Assembly (NCBI RefSeq): GCF_027706745.1
Contig: NZ_JAQFWP010000061.1
Location: forward strand, 1-44,823
Source: Nocardiopsis suaedae
GTDB lineage: Bacteria; Actinomycetota; Actinomycetes; Streptosporangiales; Streptosporangiaceae
Direction of reading: 5' to 3'
DNA length: 44,823 nucleotides
Shown: one piece after another, positions 363 through 44,823 of the stretch
Layout of the letters: each line of letters begins with the position of its first letter
Position numbering within the stretch: the first letter of the stretch is position 1
Program-made: the position numbers and the translations under genes
The notes under the pieces: generated by a model
What the model saw: only the letters and a program-made list of their open reading frames with translations
Told to the model about the DNA's origin: nothing
The model's database searches: none

Positions 363-3266
363 ATGAGCCCCCGGCACCGACCCCTGCGCCTGCTCGCGGG
401 CGCGCTGACCGCCGCGCTCGCCGCGGTGCTCGCCCCCGCCGCCCCCGTCCACGCCGCCGCCTCCTGCTCGGTCGACTACGAGGTCGCCGACGAGTGGGGC
501 GGCGGCTTCACCGCCGCCGTCACCGTGGTCAACGGCGACGAGCCCGTCTCCGGCTGGTCGCTCGGCTGGACCTTCCCCGACGGCCAGCAGATCACCAACG
601 GCTGGAACGGCGCCTTCTCCCAGGAGGGGGACGAGGTCACCGTCTCCCACCCGGGTTGGAACCCCGACCTGGACCCCGGCGAGGCCGCCTCGTTCGGGTT
701 CCAGGCCTCCCTCACCGGCGCCAACGGCGCGCCCACCGGGTTCACCCTCAACGGCACCCCGTGCGACGGCGAGGGCGACAACACCCCGCCCGAGGTCGCG
801 CTGACCGCCCCCGAGGACGGCGCCGCGCTGCTCGCCGACGACCCGATCGCCCTGGCCGCCGAGGCCTCCGACGCCGACGGGGAGGTCGAGCGCGTCGTCT
901 TCCAGGCCGACGGCACCGAGATCGGCGCCGACGACACGGCCCCCTACACGGCGGACTGGTCCGGCGCCGAGCCGGGCCGGTACTCGCTGACCGCCACCGC
1001 GGTCGACGACCAGGGGGCGGCGACCACCTCGGCCCCGGTCGCGGTGCAGGTGCTGGCCGAGCCGGAGGTCACCGCGCGGCCCTCCTCGGTCAGCGTCCGC
1101 CAGGGCGGGACCGCCTCCTTCGAACTCGAACTGTCCACCGCCCCCGAGGACGGCGTCCAGGTGGAGGTGGCCCGCACCGGGGGCAGCGAGGACATCACCG
1201 TCGCCGGCGGCGCCTCCCTCTCCTTCGGGCCCGACGACTGGGACGAGCCGCAGGAGGTGACGGTCGCCTCCGCGGACAACGGCGGCGACCCGGCCTCGGC
1301 CGTGCTCACCGCGTCGGCCGAGGGGTACGGCTCCGCCGAGGTCGAGGTCACCGAGATCGAGGGGTCGGCCTCCGACTACGACGCGGCGTTCCTGGAGCAG
1401 TACGACAAGATCAAGGACCCCGACAGCGGGTACTTCCGCGCGTTCGACGGGCTGCTGGTGCCCTACCACTCGGTGGAGACCCTCATCGTGGAGGCGCCGG
1501 ACCACGGGCACGCCACCACCTCCGAGGCGTTCAGCTACTACCTGTGGCTGGAGGCCGCCTACGGCAGGGCGACCGGCGACTGGGAGCCCTTCACCGACGC
1601 GTGGGCGTCGCTGGAGGAGCACATCGTCCCGGGCACTGAGGACCAGCCCACCAACGCCGCCTACGACCCGTCCTCCCCGGCGACCTACATCCCCGAGCAG
1701 GACGAGCCCCAGGGGTACCCGTCCGCGCTGGACCAGAGCGTGCCCACCGGCGAGGACCCGCTGGCCGAGGAGCTGAGCGGCACCTACGGCACGGACGAGG
1801 TCTACGGCATGCACTGGCTGCTCGACGTGGACAACACCTACGGGTACGGGTTCTGCGGCGACGGGTCCGACGACGCGCCCGGCTACATCAACACCTTCCA
1901 GCGCGGGTCGCAGGAGTCGGTGTGGGAGACCGTCCCGCACCCCTCGTGCGAGACCTATGCGCACGGCGGCGAGAACGGGTTCCTCGACCTGTTCACCGAC
2001 GACCAGCAGTACTCGCAGCAGTGGCGCTACACCAACGCCCCCGACGCCGACGCCCGCGCGGTCCAGGTGGCGCACCTGGCGCAGACGTGGGCCGAGGAGC
2101 AGGGCAACGCCGGCGCCGTGGCCGGGGTGGTCGACGACGCCGCCCGCATGGGCGACTACCTGCGCTACGCCATGTACGACAAGTACTTCAAGCGGATCGG
2201 CGACTGCGCCGGGGAGCACGAGTGCCCCGGCGGGCAGGGCAAGAACAGCGCCCACTACCTGATGTCCTGGTACTACTCCTGGGGCGGCGCCATGGAGAGC
2301 GCCCAGTACCCGTGGGCGTGGCGGATCGGCGGCAGCTCGGCCCACCAGGGCTACCAGAACCCCATGGCCGCCTACGCCCTGTCGGAGACCGAGGCGCTCA
2401 CCCCCGCGTCGCCGACGGCCGCGGAGGACTGGGCCACCAGCATGGACCGCCAGCTGGAGTTCGTGCAGTGGCTCCAGTCGGCCGAGGGCGGCATCGCCGG
2501 GGGCGCCACCAACAGCTGGGCCGGGCGGTACGCCGACCCGCCCGAGGACGCGGCCCGGTTCTACGGCATGTACTACGACTGGCAGCCGGTGTGGCACGAC
2601 CCGCCGTCGAACAACTGGTTCGGCTTCCAGGTGTGGAACATGGAGCGGATCGCCCAGCTCTACAGCACCACCGGCGACGAGCGCGCCGGGGAGATCCTCG
2701 ACGCCTGGGTCCCCTGGGCGCTGGAGAACACCGAGATCGGGACCGGCGGGGAGTTCGCGGTCCCGTCCGACCTGGAGTGGTCCGGCCGCCCCGACGACTG
2801 GACCGGTTCGCCGACCGGGAACCCGGACCTGCACGTGGAGGTCGCCTCGCACGGGCAGGACGTCGGCGTGGCCGCCGGGCTGGCCAAGACGCTGATGCAC
2901 TACGCCGCCGGGTCGGGCGACTCCGCCGCGCGCACCGCCGCCGAAGGGCTGCTCGACGCCCTGCTGGAGCACCGGGACGACCTCGGCATCGCCGTCGAGG
3001 AGACCCGGGCCGACTACGCGCGCTTCGACGACGAGGTGTACATCCCGCAGGGCTGGTCGGGCGAGATGGCCAACGGCGACCCGGTGGGGCCCGGGGCCAC
3101 CTTCACCTCGATCCGGTCCTTCTACCGGGACGACCCGCAGTGGCCGAAGGTCGAGGCCTACCTGGAGGACCCGGACGGGCCCGCTCCCTCCTTCACCTAC
3201 CACCGGTTCTGGTCCCAGACCGAGATCGCCACGGCGTTCGCCGTCCACGACGAGCTGTTCGGCTGA
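363..3266 (+). CDS. cel48A: Secreted GH48 reducing-end exocellulase with CBM2
   Basis: This gene encodes a 967-residue secreted processive cellobiohydrolase acting on crystalline cellulose from the reducing end. A signal peptide covers about residues 1-31, ending APVHA. A family 2 cellulose-binding module lies between Cys35 and Cys134. Two beta-sandwich modules follow: an Ig-like one (about 142-231) and a Calx-beta-like one (about 234-333). The GH48 catalytic domain runs from about 338 to the end. The GH48 signature VEAPDHGHATTSEAF is present; by comparison with clostridial Cel48F, Glu377 and Glu388 correspond to the conserved acidic pair, Glu388 being the likely acid. T. fusca Cel48A has one FnIII between CBM2 and GH48, so the double spacer differs. 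The start was chosen for the signal peptide and GGAGG at 351-355. It is the first gene of the operon, behind the CelR-type operator. Confidence 0.93.
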   Translation: MSPRHRPLRLLAGALTAALAAVLAPAAPVHAAASCSVDYEVADEWGGGFTAAVTVVNGDEPVSGWSLGWTFPDGQQITNGWNGAFSQEGDEVTVSHPGWNPDLDPGEAASFGFQASLTGANGAPTGFTLNGTPCDGEGDNTPPEVALTAPEDGAALLADDPIALAAEASDADGEVERVVFQADGTEIGADDTAPYTADWSGAEPGRYSLTATAVDDQGAATTSAPVAVQVLAEPEVTARPSSVSVRQGGTASFELELSTAPEDGVQVEVARTGGSEDITVAGGASLSFGPDDWDEPQEVTVASADNGGDPASAVLTASAEGYGSAEVEVTEIEGSASDYDAAFLEQYDKIKDPDSGYFRAFDGLLVPYHSVETLIVEAPDHGHATTSEAFSYYLWLEAAYGRATGDWEPFTDAWASLEEHIVPGTEDQPTNAAYDPSSPATYIPEQDEPQGYPSALDQSVPTGEDPLAEELSGTYGTDEVYGMHWLLDVDNTYGYGFCGDGSDDAPGYINTFQRGSQESVWETVPHPSCETYAHGGENGFLDLFTDDQQYSQQWRYTNAPDADARAVQVAHLAQTWAEEQGNAGAVAGVVDDAARMGDYLRYAMYDKYFKRIGDCAGEHECPGGQGKNSAHYLMSWYYSWGGAMESAQYPWAWRIGGSSAHQGYQNPMAAYALSETEALTPASPTAAEDWATSMDRQLEFVQWLQSAEGGIAGGATNSWAGRYADPPEDAARFYGMYYDWQPVWHDPPSNNWFGFQVWNMERIAQLYSTTGDERAGEILDAWVPWALENTEIGTGGEFAVPSDLEWSGRPDDWTGSPTGNPDLHVEVASHGQDVGVAAGLAKTLMHYAAGSGDSAARTAAEGLLDALLEHRDDLGIAVEETRADYARFDDEVYIPQGWSGEMANGDPVGPGATFTSIRSFYRDDPQWPKVEAYLEDPDGPAPSFTYHRFWSQTEIATAFAVHDELFG

Positions 3267-4962: not shown

Positions 4963-6711
4963 ATGAGAGCACAGACCCACCGCCGCCACCGGCGGTGGCC
5001 GGGACGGGCCGCGGCCGGCGCCTCGGCGCTCGCCCTGGGCGCGGCCGCGTTCGCCGTCGGCTCCCCGGCGCAGGCCGCCGCGGGCTGCACGGTGGACTAC
5101 ACGGTGGCCAACGACTGGGGCTCCGGGTTCACCGCCGAGGTGGCGGTGACCAACCTGGGCGACCCACTCGACGCCTGGACGCTGGAGTGGGACTTCGCGG
5201 GCGACCAGCAGGTCACCAACGGCTGGAACGGCGACTTCTCCCAGGACGGGGCGCACGTGGAGGTGACGGGGGCGGGGCACAACGCGACCCTGGGCACCGA
5301 CGCCACGGCGCAGTTCGGGTTCAACGGGAACTACAGCGGCGACAACGCGGTGCCCGGGACCTTCACGCTGAACGGTGTGGAGTGCGACGGCACCGCCGAC
5401 CCCGGCCCGGACCCCGACCCGGATCCGGACCCCGAGCCGGGGGAGCGCGTCGACAACCCCTTCGCGGGCGCCGACACCTACGTCAACCCCGTGTGGTCCG
5501 AGAACGCCGCCTCCGAACCCGGCGGCGATGCCGTGGCCGACGAGTCCACCGCCTTCTGGATGGACCGCATCGGCGCCATCGAGGGCAACGACAGCCCCAC
5601 CACCGGCGACATGGGCCTGCGCGACCACCTCGACGAGGCCCTGGAGCAGAGCTCCGGGGACCGGCCGATGGTGATCCAGACCGTCATCTACAACCTGCCC
5701 GGCCGGGACTGCGCCGCACTGGCCTCCAACGGTGAGCTGGGCCCCGAGGAGATCGGCCGGTACAAGCAGGAGTACATCGACCCGATCGCCGAGATCCTCT
5801 CCGACGAGAAGTACGCCGACCTGCGCATCGTCGCCACCATCGAGCCCGACTCGCTGCCGAACCTGGTCACCAACGTGGGCAGCGCAGAGGGCGCGACCGA
5901 GGCGTGCAACACCATGCTCGAGAACGGCAACTATGTGGAGGGCGTGGCCTACGCCCTCGACACGCTGGGCGACATCCCCAACGTCTACAACTACGTCGAC
6001 GCCGGGCACCACGGTTGGATCGGCTGGGACACCAACCTCGGACCGGCGATGGACCTGTTCTACGAGACCGCGAACTCCCACGGCGCCTCGCCGGACGACG
6101 TGCACGGGTTCGTCACCAACACCGCCAACTACTCGGCGCTGACCGAACCGCACTTCGACGTGGGCGACACGGTCGGCGGGCAGCAGATCCGCCAGTCGGA
6201 CTGGATCGACTGGAACCAGTACGTCGACGAGCTGACCTTCGCCCAGGGGCTGCGCGAGGAGGCGGTCTCCGCCGGGTTCAGCGCCGACACCGGGATGCTG
6301 ATCGACACCTCCCGCAGCGGGTGGGGCGGCCCGGAGCGGCCCTCGGGCCCCAGCTCCTCGACCGACCTGAACACCTTCGTCGAGGACAGCCGCGTCGACC
6401 GCAGGATCCACGTCGGGAACTGGTGCAACCAGTCCGGCGCGGGGCTGGGCCACCGGCCCGCCGCCGAGCCCGAGCCGGGGATCGACGCCTACGTCTGGGT
6501 GAAGCCGCCCGGCGAGTCGGACGGCTCCAGCGAGGAGATCCCCAACGACGAGGGCAAGGGCTTCGACCGGATGTGCGACCCCACTTATGAGGGGAACCCG
6601 CGCAACGGGAACAACCCGTCCGGCGCCCTGCCGGACGCCCCGCTGGCCGGCCACTGGTTCTCCGCCCAGTTCCAGGAGCTGCTGGCCAACGCCCACCCGT
6701 CGGTGGGCTGA
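4963..6711 (+). CDS. cel6B: Secreted GH6 exocellulase (Cel6B type) with CBM2
   Basis: This 582-residue protein resembles T. fusca Cel6B, a cellobiohydrolase attacking cellulose from the non-reducing end with inversion. A signal peptide (about 1-40) precedes a CBM2 starting at Cys42 (GCTVDYTVANDWGSGF). A Pro-Asp repeat linker (about 146-161) and the GH6 domain (about 165-582) follow. Key residues are visible: Asp249 in NLPGRDCAA and the candidate acid Asp296 in EPDSLPN. Late signatures include WVKPPGESDG and GKGFDRMCDP. The start follows AGAGGAGG at 4951-4958. Together with the GH48 and GH5 enzymes it completes a reducing-end exo, endo and non-reducing-end exo trio. Confidence 0.93.
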   Translation: MRAQTHRRHRRWPGRAAAGASALALGAAAFAVGSPAQAAAGCTVDYTVANDWGSGFTAEVAVTNLGDPLDAWTLEWDFAGDQQVTNGWNGDFSQDGAHVEVTGAGHNATLGTDATAQFGFNGNYSGDNAVPGTFTLNGVECDGTADPGPDPDPDPDPEPGERVDNPFAGADTYVNPVWSENAASEPGGDAVADESTAFWMDRIGAIEGNDSPTTGDMGLRDHLDEALEQSSGDRPMVIQTVIYNLPGRDCAALASNGELGPEEIGRYKQEYIDPIAEILSDEKYADLRIVATIEPDSLPNLVTNVGSAEGATEACNTMLENGNYVEGVAYALDTLGDIPNVYNYVDAGHHGWIGWDTNLGPAMDLFYETANSHGASPDDVHGFVTNTANYSALTEPHFDVGDTVGGQQIRQSDWIDWNQYVDELTFAQGLREEAVSAGFSADTGMLIDTSRSGWGGPERPSGPSSSTDLNTFVEDSRVDRRIHVGNWCNQSGAGLGHRPAAEPEPGIDAYVWVKPPGESDGSSEEIPNDEGKGFDRMCDPTYEGNPRNGNNPSGALPDAPLAGHWFSAQFQELLANAHPSVG

Positions 6712-40340: not shown

Positions 40341-40470
40341 TCGGTCCGCGTCGTCGCGCGGACACGGTCAACCATAGCAAAGGTCTGAGCCCGGGCGTAC
40401 ATCGTTTTCCGCCGGGGTGGAGCATGGGAAGGTCGGATCCACACGTCGCCGAGAGGAGCTGGTGCACACC

Positions 40471-41799
40471 ATGCCCGAGACCGAAGGCAGCGGTGCCCTG
40501 AGCGGGGCCGAGGCGGAGGTCGTCGACCTCTGCCGGGAGCTCATCGCCATCGACACCTCCAACTACGGGGACATGTCGGGTCCGGGGGAGCGGGAGGCCG
40601 CCGAGTACGTCGCCGGGAAGCTGGACGAGGTCGGCATCGAGCCGCGGGTGCTGGAGTCGGCCCCCGGGCGGACCAGCGTCATCGCGCGCATCCCCGGCGA
40701 GGACTCCTCGCGTGCGCCCTTGCTCGTGCACGGGCACCTGGACGTGGTGCCCGCCGACGCCGCCGACTGGACCCGCGACCCCTTCTCCGGCGAGATCGCC
40801 GACGGGTGCGTCTGGGGCCGCGGCGCCGTCGACATGAAGGACATGGACGCCATGGCCCTGGCCGTCTTCCGCGAGCGGGTGCGCTCCGGGCGCCGGCCGC
40901 CGCGCGACGTGGTCCTCGCCTTCCTCGCCGACGAGGAGGCCGGGGGCACCTACGGCGCCCAGTGGCTGGTCGCCAACCACCCCGAGCTGTTCGCCGACTG
41001 CTCCGAGGCCATCAGCGAGGTCGGCGGCTTCAGCTTCACCGTGGAGGAGAACCGGCGCCTCTACCTCATCGAGACCGCCGAGAAGGGCATCGCCTGGATG
41101 CGCCTCAAGGCGCGCGGCACCGCCGGGCACGGGTCGATGGTCAACGACGACAACGCGGTGACCGAGCTCGCCGAGGCCGTCGCCCGGCTCGGCCGCCACG
41201 AGTTCCCCGTCCGGCTCACCAAGACCGTGCGCACCTTCCTGGAGGAGGTGTGCGACGCCTTCGGCATCCCCTTCGACGAGGAGGACCCCGAGGCGGTGCT
41301 CTCCCGCCTCGGCCCCATCGCCGGGATGATCGGCGCCACCCTCCGCAACACGCTCAACCCCACCGTCCTCGAGGGCGGCTACAAGGCCAACGTCATCCCC
41401 GGCTCGGCCGGGGCCCAGGTCGACGGGCGGTTCCTGCCCGGGATGGAGGAGGAGTTCTTCGCCGAGGTGGACCGGCTGCTCGGCCCCGACGTCGAGCGCG
41501 AGTTCATCCACCACCTCCCCTCCGTGGAGACCGACTTCGAGGGCGGCCTGGTCTCGGCCATGGCGCGCGCCCTTGAGGAGGAGGACCCCGGCTCCCGCGC
41601 GGTGCCCTACTGCCTGTCCGGCGGCACCGACGCCAAGAGCTTCCAGCGGCTCGGCATCCGCAACTACGGCTTCGCCCCGCTGCGCCTGCCCCCGGAGCTG
41701 AACTTCTCCGGCATGTTCCACGGCGTGGACGAGCGCGTCCCCGTGGACGCCCTGCGGTTCGGCGCGCGGGTGCTGGACCGGTTCATCGACATGAGCTGA
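40471..41799 (+). CDS. M20-family metallopeptidase/deacylase
   Basis: The 442-residue product is an M20/ArgE-type dimetal hydrolase. Metal ligands are in VHGHLDVVP, GRGAVDMKDMDAM and the catalytic Glu pair LADEEAGG; a late ligand His is in FSGMFHGVDERVP. The inserted dimerisation domain contains KARGTAGHGSM. No signal peptide is present. The substrate could be a peptide or an N-acyl amino acid. ATG at 40471 gives a normal N-terminus, with GAGAGGAG 12 bases upstream; GTG at 40462 is the alternative. It stands next to tRNA-Leu, a common actinobacterial arrangement, and ends at a terminator. Confidence 0.9.
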   Translation: MPETEGSGALSGAEAEVVDLCRELIAIDTSNYGDMSGPGEREAAEYVAGKLDEVGIEPRVLESAPGRTSVIARIPGEDSSRAPLLVHGHLDVVPADAADWTRDPFSGEIADGCVWGRGAVDMKDMDAMALAVFRERVRSGRRPPRDVVLAFLADEEAGGTYGAQWLVANHPELFADCSEAISEVGGFSFTVEENRRLYLIETAEKGIAWMRLKARGTAGHGSMVNDDNAVTELAEAVARLGRHEFPVRLTKTVRTFLEEVCDAFGIPFDEEDPEAVLSRLGPIAGMIGATLRNTLNPTVLEGGYKANVIPGSAGAQVDGRFLPGMEEEFFAEVDRLLGPDVEREFIHHLPSVETDFEGGLVSAMARALEEEDPGSRAVPYCLSGGTDAKSFQRLGIRNYGFAPLRLPPELNFSGMFHGVDERVPVDALRFGARVLDRFIDMS

Positions 41800-41860: not shown

Positions 41861-41994
41861 TTTCGCTGTTTTCGCTGCGCCAATAGCGCACCGTGGTGCT
41901 AGCGTGACTCTCAGTCTGCGGGACACGTTCCCGCCGTCGACCGGGTTCTCCGGTCGGCGCACCCGTGCGTCTTCTTCACCCGAGGTGGCTTTCC

Positions 41995-43062
41995 ATGGTG
42001 CAGGTCGGCAGCGGCAGGCGGGTCCGCCCCGCCGGTGCCCTGCGCCTGCCGGGCGTCCGCGCCCTGCGCCGCCTCGCGGTCGTCACCGGCCTGGTGGCCG
42101 GCGGGTGGCTGGTCGGCGCCTCCGCGGCGCACGCCGCCGACGACGCCTTGGCCGAGGTCCCCGTGGTGAGCGGGGCCGCCGGCCGGGCGGTCGACGAGGC
42201 GCAGGCCGCCCAGGAGGAGCGGGAGACGCGGCAGGGGCAGGAGGCGGCGGCGCCTTCGGAGGCGGAGCCGTCGGGGACGGAGTACGGGAAGGCCGAGCGG
42301 CGGCCCGCGCGCGGTGTGTCGGGTGCGGTGGACGGAACCGTTGATTCCACCGTGCGCAGCGCCGACGCGGCCGTCCGGTCCGTCGGCTCCGAGGTCGGGA
42401 CCACGGTCGGCTCCACGGTCGACTCCGCGGAGGGCGCCGTCGGGGACCGGGTGGTCGCCGACACCGTCCGCTCCGGCCGCGAGGGCGTCCGCGAGGGGGT
42501 CCGCGAGATCGCCGGGGAACCGCTCGGCGAGCCGCTGCGCACCTCCCTCGGCGAGGGGGAACTCGCCTCGGCCGTCTCCGAGGGGCTCGGCGCCGACGCC
42601 GCCGGCACCTCCGACCGGGTCCGCGACGGGCTCGGGCGGATCGTCGGAGGCGGTCTGGGCGCCGCCCCCGAGCACCCGGCCTCCCGCACCGATGAGGGCG
42701 CGCACGAGCGCGACCGCGCCGGTGCCCGCGCACGCGGCGCCCGGGAGCGCGCCGCGGCCGCCCTGGCCGACCACGCGGGCGCCGAGCGCCCCGCGGCCAC
42801 CGGCGGTACCGCCGTCGCCGGTTCCGAGGGCGGGCGTGCCGTCGAGCACGCCCCCGCCCCCGACACCGACGGCGCCTGGAACGGCTCGGACTCGGCCGCG
42901 ACCGGCGTGTCCTCGTCGCCCTTCCCCGCGCCCGCGGCCGGATTCTGGCTGCAGCAGCGCGGCGCCGTGCTGCGCCCCGCCGCCCAGCGCGCGTTCCTTC
43001 CCGGCGACCCGGCCCTGGTCGTCCGCGACGCCGCGGACGACCCGTCGTACTCGCCCGACTAG
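41995..43062 (+). CDS. Secreted Ala/Gly/charged-rich protein of unknown function
   Basis: The 355-residue product starts with an Arg-rich region and a hydrophobic segment (RRLAVVTGLVAGGWLVGASAAHA) that reads as a cleavable signal. The mature chain is low in hydrophobic residues and contains a helical-looking part with heptad-like Val/Ser/Asp pattern (TVDSTVRSADAAVRSVGSEV, TVGSTVDSAEGAVGDRV), suggesting an extended coiled or fibrous region, then RVRDGLGRIVGGGL and a hydrophilic tail. No family is recognised. GAGGTGG precedes the ATG, and TAGCGT at 41900-41905 is a possible -10. It lies directly before a chaplin gene, so a role in the cell surface or aerial hyphae is an inference. Confidence 0.75.
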   Translation: MVQVGSGRRVRPAGALRLPGVRALRRLAVVTGLVAGGWLVGASAAHAADDALAEVPVVSGAAGRAVDEAQAAQEERETRQGQEAAAPSEAEPSGTEYGKAERRPARGVSGAVDGTVDSTVRSADAAVRSVGSEVGTTVGSTVDSAEGAVGDRVVADTVRSGREGVREGVREIAGEPLGEPLRTSLGEGELASAVSEGLGADAAGTSDRVRDGLGRIVGGGLGAAPEHPASRTDEGAHERDRAGARARGARERAAAALADHAGAERPAATGGTAVAGSEGGRAVEHAPAPDTDGAWNGSDSAATGVSSSPFPAPAAGFWLQQRGAVLRPAAQRAFLPGDPALVVRDAADDPSYSPD

Positions 43063-43983: not shown

Positions 43984-44162
43984 GCCGCTCGGCCAGAGCG
44001 GAGCTGACACAGGGCGTGCACCACCCACGCATCAGGGTGTGACCGGAGCGCGCCCCCGTCCGGCCCAGGACGTGCCGGCGCCCGATCCACGGACGCCGGG
44101 GCGCGAGCGGTCACGCACGGTTCCATCTCATTTCCACGCTGTACTCTGAAAGGAAATCCCAC

Positions 44163-44823
44163 ATGCGCAAGTGGGTTCGCACCTCCGCCAAGACGGCCCT
44201 GCTCACCGCCGGGTTCGTCGCGCTGGGCGCCGGTGTCTCCTTCGCCGACTCCGCGCCCGTCACCTCGGGCAACGGCTCCATCGGCGGCGGCAACCAGATC
44301 GTGGGCAACGCCGACGTGCCCGTGAACGTCTCGGGCAACGCGATCGCCCTGGGCGGCAGCACCGCCAACGCCACCTCCAAGGACACCGGCGCCCGCGTCA
44401 TCGACGACAACGGCGACGACGGCCCGATCACCTCGGGCAACGGCTCGGTCCTGGGCGGCAACCAGGGCGTGCTGGACCTGGACGTCCCGGTCAACGCCTC
44501 GGGCAACGCGGTCGCCGGGGTGCTCAGCAGCGCCGCCGCGACCTCCGAGGACAGCGGCGCCTGGGTGCTGGAGAGCGGCCGCAGCGGCCACAGCGCCCCC
44601 GTCACCTCGGGCAACGGCTCGGCCGGCGGCGGCAACCAGATCGTGGGCCACGGCGACGTGCCCGTGAACTTCTCCGGCAACGCCATCGCGGCCGGGCTGA
44701 GCGCGGCCCACGCCGCCTCCAAGGACACCGGCGCGTTCGTGGTCCACGACCGCGCGGGCCAGGACGAGGGCCCGATCACCTCGGGCAACGGCTCGGTCCT
44801 GGGCGGCAACCAGGGCGTGCTGG
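44163..44823 (+). CDS. Secreted protein of tandem cysteine-free chaplin-like repeats (partial)
   Basis: This open frame continues past the window end; 220 codons are visible. After a signal peptide (about 1-28; TALLTAGFVALGAGVSFA) come four repeats of about 57-59 residues. They alternate between type A (SAPVTSGNGS, GGGNQIVG, DVPVNVSGNAIA) and type B (GPITSGNGSVLGGNQGVL, DVPVNASGNAVAG). Each keeps the chaplin order Gly-Asn-Gln, VPVN, GNA but has Ser in place of the first chaplin Cys and no second Cys. AAAGGAAA lies about nine bases before the ATG. A surface-fibre or amyloid-type role is inferred from chaplin resemblance and position. Confidence 0.88.
   Translation, partial: MRKWVRTSAKTALLTAGFVALGAGVSFADSAPVTSGNGSIGGGNQIVGNADVPVNVSGNAIALGGSTANATSKDTGARVIDDNGDDGPITSGNGSVLGGNQGVLDLDVPVNASGNAVAGVLSSAAATSEDSGAWVLESGRSGHSAPVTSGNGSAGGGNQIVGHGDVPVNFSGNAIAAGLSAAHAASKDTGAFVVHDRAGQDEGPITSGNGSVLGGNQGVL
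44250..44823 (+). repeat. A-B-A-B tandem repeats of the cysteine-free chaplin-like gene
   Basis: Unit starts are 44250 (A), 44421 (B), 44592 (A) and 44769 (B, cut by the window end). The two B units are identical over the 55 bases visible, and the A units share most of their first 75 bases. The higher-order period is about 345 bp. Confidence 0.9.

Follow-up and report, generated by a model that had tools for sequence, protein, structure and literature searches.

A cysteine-free, multi-unit, chaplin-derived gene beside a wall-anchored chaplin in Nocardiopsis suaedae and its relatives

Chaplin units build up the water-repellent coat found in Streptomyces. A gene for a tandem chain of such units, free of cysteine, was found at the end of the window (i.e., the whole 44,823-nucleotide stretch analysed here, from Nocardiopsis suaedae). 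Its complete relatives in the Nocardiopsidaceae were mostly free of cysteine as well and carried no wall anchor, and the conserved locus held a cysteine-bearing chaplin immediately upstream. By sequence comparison the chain is classed as chaplin-derived; its multi-unit architecture and the split locus are new, while the lack of cysteine alone was already known from ChpE. The explanation that we favour, as rather better than an even bet, is that the gene encodes a secreted, unanchored tandem chaplin that would co-assemble with cysteine-bearing chaplins in a hydrophobic, amyloid-like hyphal coat; secretion, co-assembly and coat function are suggested by analogy with chaplin biology.

The reading frame ran from 44163 to 44822 with no stop before the contig end and encoded 220 residues (Table 1). 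Its third-position GC was 0.991, where the other two forward frames had 0.671 and 0.566, and beyond residue 30 the fragment matched itself at 55% at an offset of 114, compared with a shuffle maximum of 25% (n = 1000); therefore the chain is coding and truly repetitive, and the feature is real. An offset of 114 corresponds to two units and is in line with an alternation of two unit types, A and B. Successive unit starts (44259, 44427, 44601 and 44775) were 56, 58 and 58 residues apart, while TRF recovered a period of 174 nt (3.3 copies, 71% matches). The earlier note on this DNA had described a chaplin-derived, multi-unit protein without cysteine and with A/B-like alternation, which was borne out: the fragment contained no cysteine and its relatives fell under the Pfam chaplin family. 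Its term 'near-identical' for the repeats was too strong, as the 46-residue unit cores were 63–78% identical in pairwise comparison within the window. The hydrophobic N-terminus, judged by eye to be signal-peptide-like, was conserved across the 26 proteins of an alignment of relatives (A2). In the one pair compared, N. suaedae and N. chromatogenes, 23 of 202 codons differed, of which 15 were silent and 8 non-silent.

Table 1. Coordinates of features in the window
Feature	Position	Strand	Evidence or remark
M20-family peptidase	40417..41799	+	ORF; fixed point of the conserved locus
365-aa ORF	41965..43062	+	Secretion-like N-terminus (by eye); no Pfam or NCBIfam match at E<=1
Wall-anchored chaplin, 233 aa	43199..43900	+	Two Cys-bearing units, LPVTG sorting signal; ChpA-C 25.1 bits, cut-off 21
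CCATCTCAT, 5' of the gene	44123..44131	+	Possible promoter element, by eye; similar CATCTCAT/CTTCTCAT precede many relatives' genes (by eye)
Cys-free multi-unit chaplin gene, 5' part	44163..44823	+	220 aa; frame runs off the contig end
Signal-peptide-like start MRKWVRTSAKTALLTAGFVALGAGVSFAD	44163..44249	+	Judged by eye; strongly conserved in alignment A2
Unit 1, type A	44259..44426	+	Start 2 residues before SGNGS
Unit 2	44427..44600	+	Front half type B; rear half like first full unit of C131 (by eye)
Unit 3, type A	44601..44774	+	Start 2 residues before SGNGS
Unit 4, type B	44775..44823	+	Interrupted by contig end

The genome comprises 139 contigs and 6.97 Mb; the window is contig C61 in full and ends within unit 4. 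The 3' part of the gene is probably carried by contig C131 (3232 nt), which starts in frame with a partial unit, continues with two further full units, and then encodes a Gly/Asp linker and a Pro/Leu-rich tail before a stop codon at 1021–1023; the next gene encodes a topoisomerase (Pfam Topoisom_bac, 268.7 bits). With the C131 units added, pairwise identity of unit cores ranged over 63–83%. The first 16 nt of C131 were identical to the window end, and its first 55 nt to window positions 44460–44514; this repetition would account for a contig break at that point. Two contigs of N. chromatogenes likewise end at a unit border of the chain gene. If the putative join of C61 and C131 is correct, on which the copy number depends, then the N. 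suaedae chain likely has at least six units. The ending of C61 within a unit and the 55-nt repetition would also be expected if the architecture were an assembly artefact caused by repeat collapse. This is highly improbable, given that uninterrupted complete genes of the same build were found in N. endophytica (439 aa, 4 units), in the 3-contig genome G002 (462 aa, 5 units) and in others; all that is at stake is the exact unit number in N. suaedae. The earlier note had looked to an extension of the sequence for the full repeat number and any anchor: a probable 3' part was obtained, and none of 35 complete Nocardiopsidaceae relatives had an anchor (see below). At the other end of C131, positions 3171–3204 hold a stretch that we take to resemble a Nextera sequencing adapter; since it sits where the topA frame stops, this contig end is probably an artefact.

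Relatives were collected by a genome scan with two peptide patterns, one of which demands serine at the first cysteine site and thereby biases the sample. The scan matched 218 stretches, 112 of which encode a relative, and the best 80 of the 112 were kept (76 loci). The Nocardiopsidaceae-type set comprised 43 loci (42 from the scan plus L050); five were dropped for having no start by pattern (L060, L061, L065, L086 and L096), and three of the remaining 38 because their frames run off the contig (L073, L103 and L116). The 35 complete proteins were 338–569 aa long with 2–7 units. Cysteine was absent from 31, and the other four kept a single pair, in unit 1; hence, normal cysteine-bearing chaplin domains further downstream, which the earlier note had named as counting against its view, did not appear in these 35. 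Neither a C-terminal hydrophobic segment nor an LPxTG-like motif was present in any of the 35. A second sample was drawn with a profile. At E<=1e-10 it matched 113 of the 150 genomes in the GTDB family, and 30 loci (L135–L164) were taken and yielded 21 rows. Sixteen rows were complete proteins without an anchor, as judged from the tail by eye; of these, 14 were Cys-free, one (G027) was scored CCC, with cysteine in three of three units, and one (G012) was mixed. The remaining rows were four Cys-bearing proteins with a basic tail and one open frame. This sample shares species with the pattern scan, and the start pattern misses some relatives (L161 and L163 among them). The unanchored tail was thus consistent across both samples, and the lack of cysteine is a rule with exceptions. 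The cysteine-bearing, unanchored chains of the Nocardiopsidaceae-type genomes G027 (L199) and G012 (L200) may represent intermediates or may have arisen by conversion from the neighbouring gene.

The Pfam family PF03777 (ChpA-C) was matched at E<=0.01 by all 26 proteins in A2, of which 24 were Cys-free and two had one cysteine-bearing unit. The signal of the Cys-free chains was weak: the N. endophytica protein (L059), the one A2 member whose score is known, reached 32.4 bits (cut-off 21) with no single unit passing alone, and the window fragment gave 12 bits, below the cut-off, compared with 185.7 bits over 8 stretches for the Cys-bearing L099. HHalign comparison of 179 Cys-free units with 136 cysteine-bearing units from the corresponding locus of Streptosporangiaceae and Thermomonosporaceae gave 98.2% (pairwise E = 5.7e-14); the match to 20 Streptomyces-type chaplin domains was weaker (91.1%, pairwise E = 1e-6). 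The core GGNQ..VPVN..GN was retained in the Cys-free units. No relative of the chain was found in the PDB at E<=0.1, and NCBIfam gave no match for the window fragment. A match to an unrelated characterised family, which the earlier note had named as counting against its view, was not obtained, Pfam returning ChpA-C; side matches to Extensin_1 (2/26), LRR_6 (2/26) and SasG_E (1/26) were weak and were taken as low-complexity.

Two features that define chaplins were lacking, and the chain is accordingly filed as a variant rather than a standard member. Chaplin domains other than ChpE have two conserved cysteines, and 179 of 183 units had none (a count that leaves out G027, G012 and the anchored neighbour in L103). 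The column of the first cysteine held Ser in 79 of these 179 units, Ala in 58, Thr in 41 and Asp in one, and that of the second mostly Ala (81), Ser (62) and Asn (20). The earlier note, which had the first cysteine replaced by Ser and the second missing, needs correcting here: alanine and threonine also occur at the first site, and the second site is aligned and replaced. In addition, chaplin domains are described with three GN motifs (PMC13251363). By inspection, the unit consensus kept GGN and (S/A/T)GN, with an extra SGNG before the unit, and lacked the third GN motif ahead of the second cysteine site.

The M20 peptidase gene and topA flanked the chain gene both in Nocardiopsidaceae and in Streptosporangiaceae/Thermomonosporaceae (topA was confirmed by Pfam). 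Across 77 loci from both groups (the 76 scan loci plus L050), topA was present in 60 and the peptidase in 48; contig ends truncate many of these loci, and some represent other chaplins. A cysteine-bearing chaplin of 1–3 units lay upstream of the chain gene at 36 of 38 Nocardiopsidaceae loci, with the first cysteine present in 48 of 48 units; 34 of the 36 proteins carried an L(P/A)xTG-like motif. The two exceptions were L091 (Marinactinospora), where the chain gene was present and the 5 kb seen held truly no such chaplin, and L094, where a contig end left 710 bases of upstream sequence. At 20 Streptosporangiaceae/Thermomonosporaceae loci, no chaplin-like frame was found upstream on the same strand of the fetched stretch (5 kb for 19, about 0.6 kb for L107). 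Anchor and cysteine would thus seem to be held by a separate gene in Nocardiopsidaceae now. In seven of seven genomes of a genus labelled Streptomyces-like, a short Cys-bearing chaplin and a long chaplin came after this M20 gene; the label reflects 80–86% identity of the short chaplin, over about 42 aa, to seven Streptomyces plasmid records, six of them annotated as chaplin. The chaplin pattern was absent from 20 of 30 M20 loci with flanks of at most 1.5 kb, and the window's own locus was among those 20. The 365-aa ORF, adjacent to the anchored chaplin, had C-terminal residues that were conserved in Nocardiopsidaceae. Elsewhere in the N. suaedae genome, chaplins above the Pfam cut-off occurred on contigs C25 and C31, and contig C12 had a short ORF resembling a chaplin; the chaplin on C25 (2579–3529) has three Cys-bearing units and LPVTG, where usual descriptions give two units.

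Among known systems, ChpE of Streptomyces coelicolor is alike in having a chaplin domain without the two cysteines and in being secreted and unanchored (PMC3079736, PMC5618241). ChpE is a single domain of about 55–63 aa, whereas the chain has tandem units, linkers, a Pro-rich tail and no third GN motif (ChpE being compared by description, not by alignment). Short chaplins (ChpD-H) likewise have a single domain, in contrast to the 2–7 units of the complete relatives. The long chaplins (PF03777) resemble the chain in having more than one unit in a secreted protein, and a long chaplin stands at the M20 locus of the Streptomyces-like genomes; they differ in having two domains, mostly with cysteine, and a sortase signal. 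Likeness in build was also seen in 20 proteins from Nonomuraea, Actinomadura, Acrocarpospora and kin (among L099–L127), which lie next to topA, begin with MR(K/T)W and use the same unit, but have 7–8 units, 12–14 cysteines, a C-terminal hydrophobic segment and a basic tail (20/20). Serine occupied the first cysteine site of unit 1 in 18 of these 20, and further Cys-bearing multi-unit relatives contained 8–15 cysteines. No description of the 12–14-Cys proteins was found in the literature searched. The earlier note's statement that known chaplins have one or two disulfide domains was contradicted by these unit numbers, by ChpE (PMC3079736) and by one domain of ChpB that is described without cysteine (PMC13251363). 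The rodlins RdlA and RdlB are secreted coat proteins too, a likeness drawn from published descriptions alone. Chaplin-like genes were noted in Nocardiopsis dassonvillei in 2013 (PMC4255298). Among the literature matches listed, with subscription journals mostly outside the search, none dealt with a multi-unit chaplin free of cysteine, which agrees with the earlier note in knowing of no described function.

The hyphal coat is described as containing chaplins, the short ones lowering surface tension and the long ones being wall-anchored (PMC3079736, PMC5618241). On the favoured explanation of a co-assembling tandem chaplin, the predicted signal peptide would export the chain, which would stay soluble because no disulfide could lock it into oligomers, as proposed for ChpE; the linked units would then co-assemble, at the air-water interface, with the short Cys-bearing chaplins and with the upstream wall-anchored chaplin. 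Even without cysteine, a chain of linked units would still bring several units together. The same elements could instead form a non-amyloid extracellular matrix or adhesive fibre, in which the chaplin skeleton would persist only as a scaffold for repeats; its Gly/His/Asp linkers and acidic, Pro-rich tail would give a polymer that is hydrated and flexible, or a chain that binds ligands. Such a fibre would suit the loss of both cysteines and of the third GN motif, the weak Pfam scores, the long His/Asp/Gly linkers of some members (L083 and L093, for example) and the conserved non-repeat segment between units; six mature relatives, moreover, were acidic (pI 4.1–4.6) and weakly hydrophobic overall (GRAVY -0.21 to 0.07). 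The weak Pfam signal, the missing third GN motif and this low hydropathy also count against the co-assembly explanation, as do the cysteines retained in some chains, the lack of an upstream partner in L091 and the two genomes without the chain gene described below. We regard the matrix fibre as unlikely, though not far-fetched, since the unit cores of the Cys-free chains were no less hydrophobic (mean GRAVY 0.44) than Cys-bearing units (0.29) or Streptomyces-type domains (0.31), the core motif is kept, and ChpE is reported to form amyloid despite its lack of cysteine (PMC3079736).

A decaying or neutral paralogue, whose function was taken over by the anchored neighbour, would account for the loss of cysteine and anchor and for a unit number varying from 2 to 7; moreover, the chain gene was missing between the M20 gene and topA in two Nocardiopsidaceae-type genomes (L196 and L197). 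This is improbable when set against 35 complete frames, start and tail conserved in the 26 aligned proteins, a majority of silent codon changes in the pair compared (15/23) and retention of the Cys-bearing neighbour at 36 of 38 loci. In L197, three direct repeats with a shared core, 130–136 nt apart, were seen at 5799–6132, at the place of the missing chain gene, with topA on one side and a gene that looks anchored on the other; these are perhaps a small repeat array.

An elaboration of the co-assembly explanation concerns nucleation. Disulfide-linked chaplin oligomers have been proposed as nuclei in Streptomyces (PMC3079736, PMC5618241), and peptide linkage of units might replace these in the chain. 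The Nocardiopsidaceae would then possess a split system, in which one gene keeps disulfides and anchor and the tandem-unit gene nucleates by covalent peptide linkage in place of the disulfide-linked dimers; if so, the Streptosporangiaceae protein (mostly one Cys-free unit, then Cys-bearing units and a hydrophobic C-terminus) would hold both jobs. This is doubtful and is offered tentatively, the chaplin disulfide being called intramolecular in two reviews (PMC5618241, PMC7766987). The purpose of the chaplin cysteines is itself an open point, as fibrils reportedly do not require them in vitro, but Cys-less ChpH is reported to leave aerial growth severely compromised (PMC3079736). A mostly Cys-free family with an adjoining Cys-bearing anchored partner, and with intermediates, amounts to a natural experiment on their role, and Cys-free multi-unit chains that are perhaps surface-active are candidates for materials work.

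In the topA tree (60 rows), a single branch (support 100, by a quick method) separated the 20 Cys-bearing rows from the others, with contig-cut genes scored as Cys-free and with G027 and G012 absent, these being placed later among the Nocardiopsidaceae. Gain and loss of cysteine are indistinguishable on this tree; loss in Nocardiopsidaceae is the simplest reading because the Streptomyces-type chaplins at the M20 locus have cysteine. The four rows with one Cys-bearing unit needed three changes, and the exceptions may have arisen through retention, conversion or regain. For these units (L083, L085, L093 and L098), a source in recent gene conversion by the anchored neighbour was not supported: unit 1 was 48–52% identical to the anchored unit (ungapped, so that an indel lowers the figure) and 55–73% identical to its own chain. 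Conversion is possible in G027, where chain and neighbour look alike by eye. Unit number seems to have been changed by recombination, because N. endophytica has four units against probably at least six in N. suaedae, and because unit 2 of the window appears by eye to join a B-type front to a rear half resembling that of another unit. One record in the topA tree, L075, is named Glycomyces fuscus and fell among Nocardiopsis; this name is possibly wrong.
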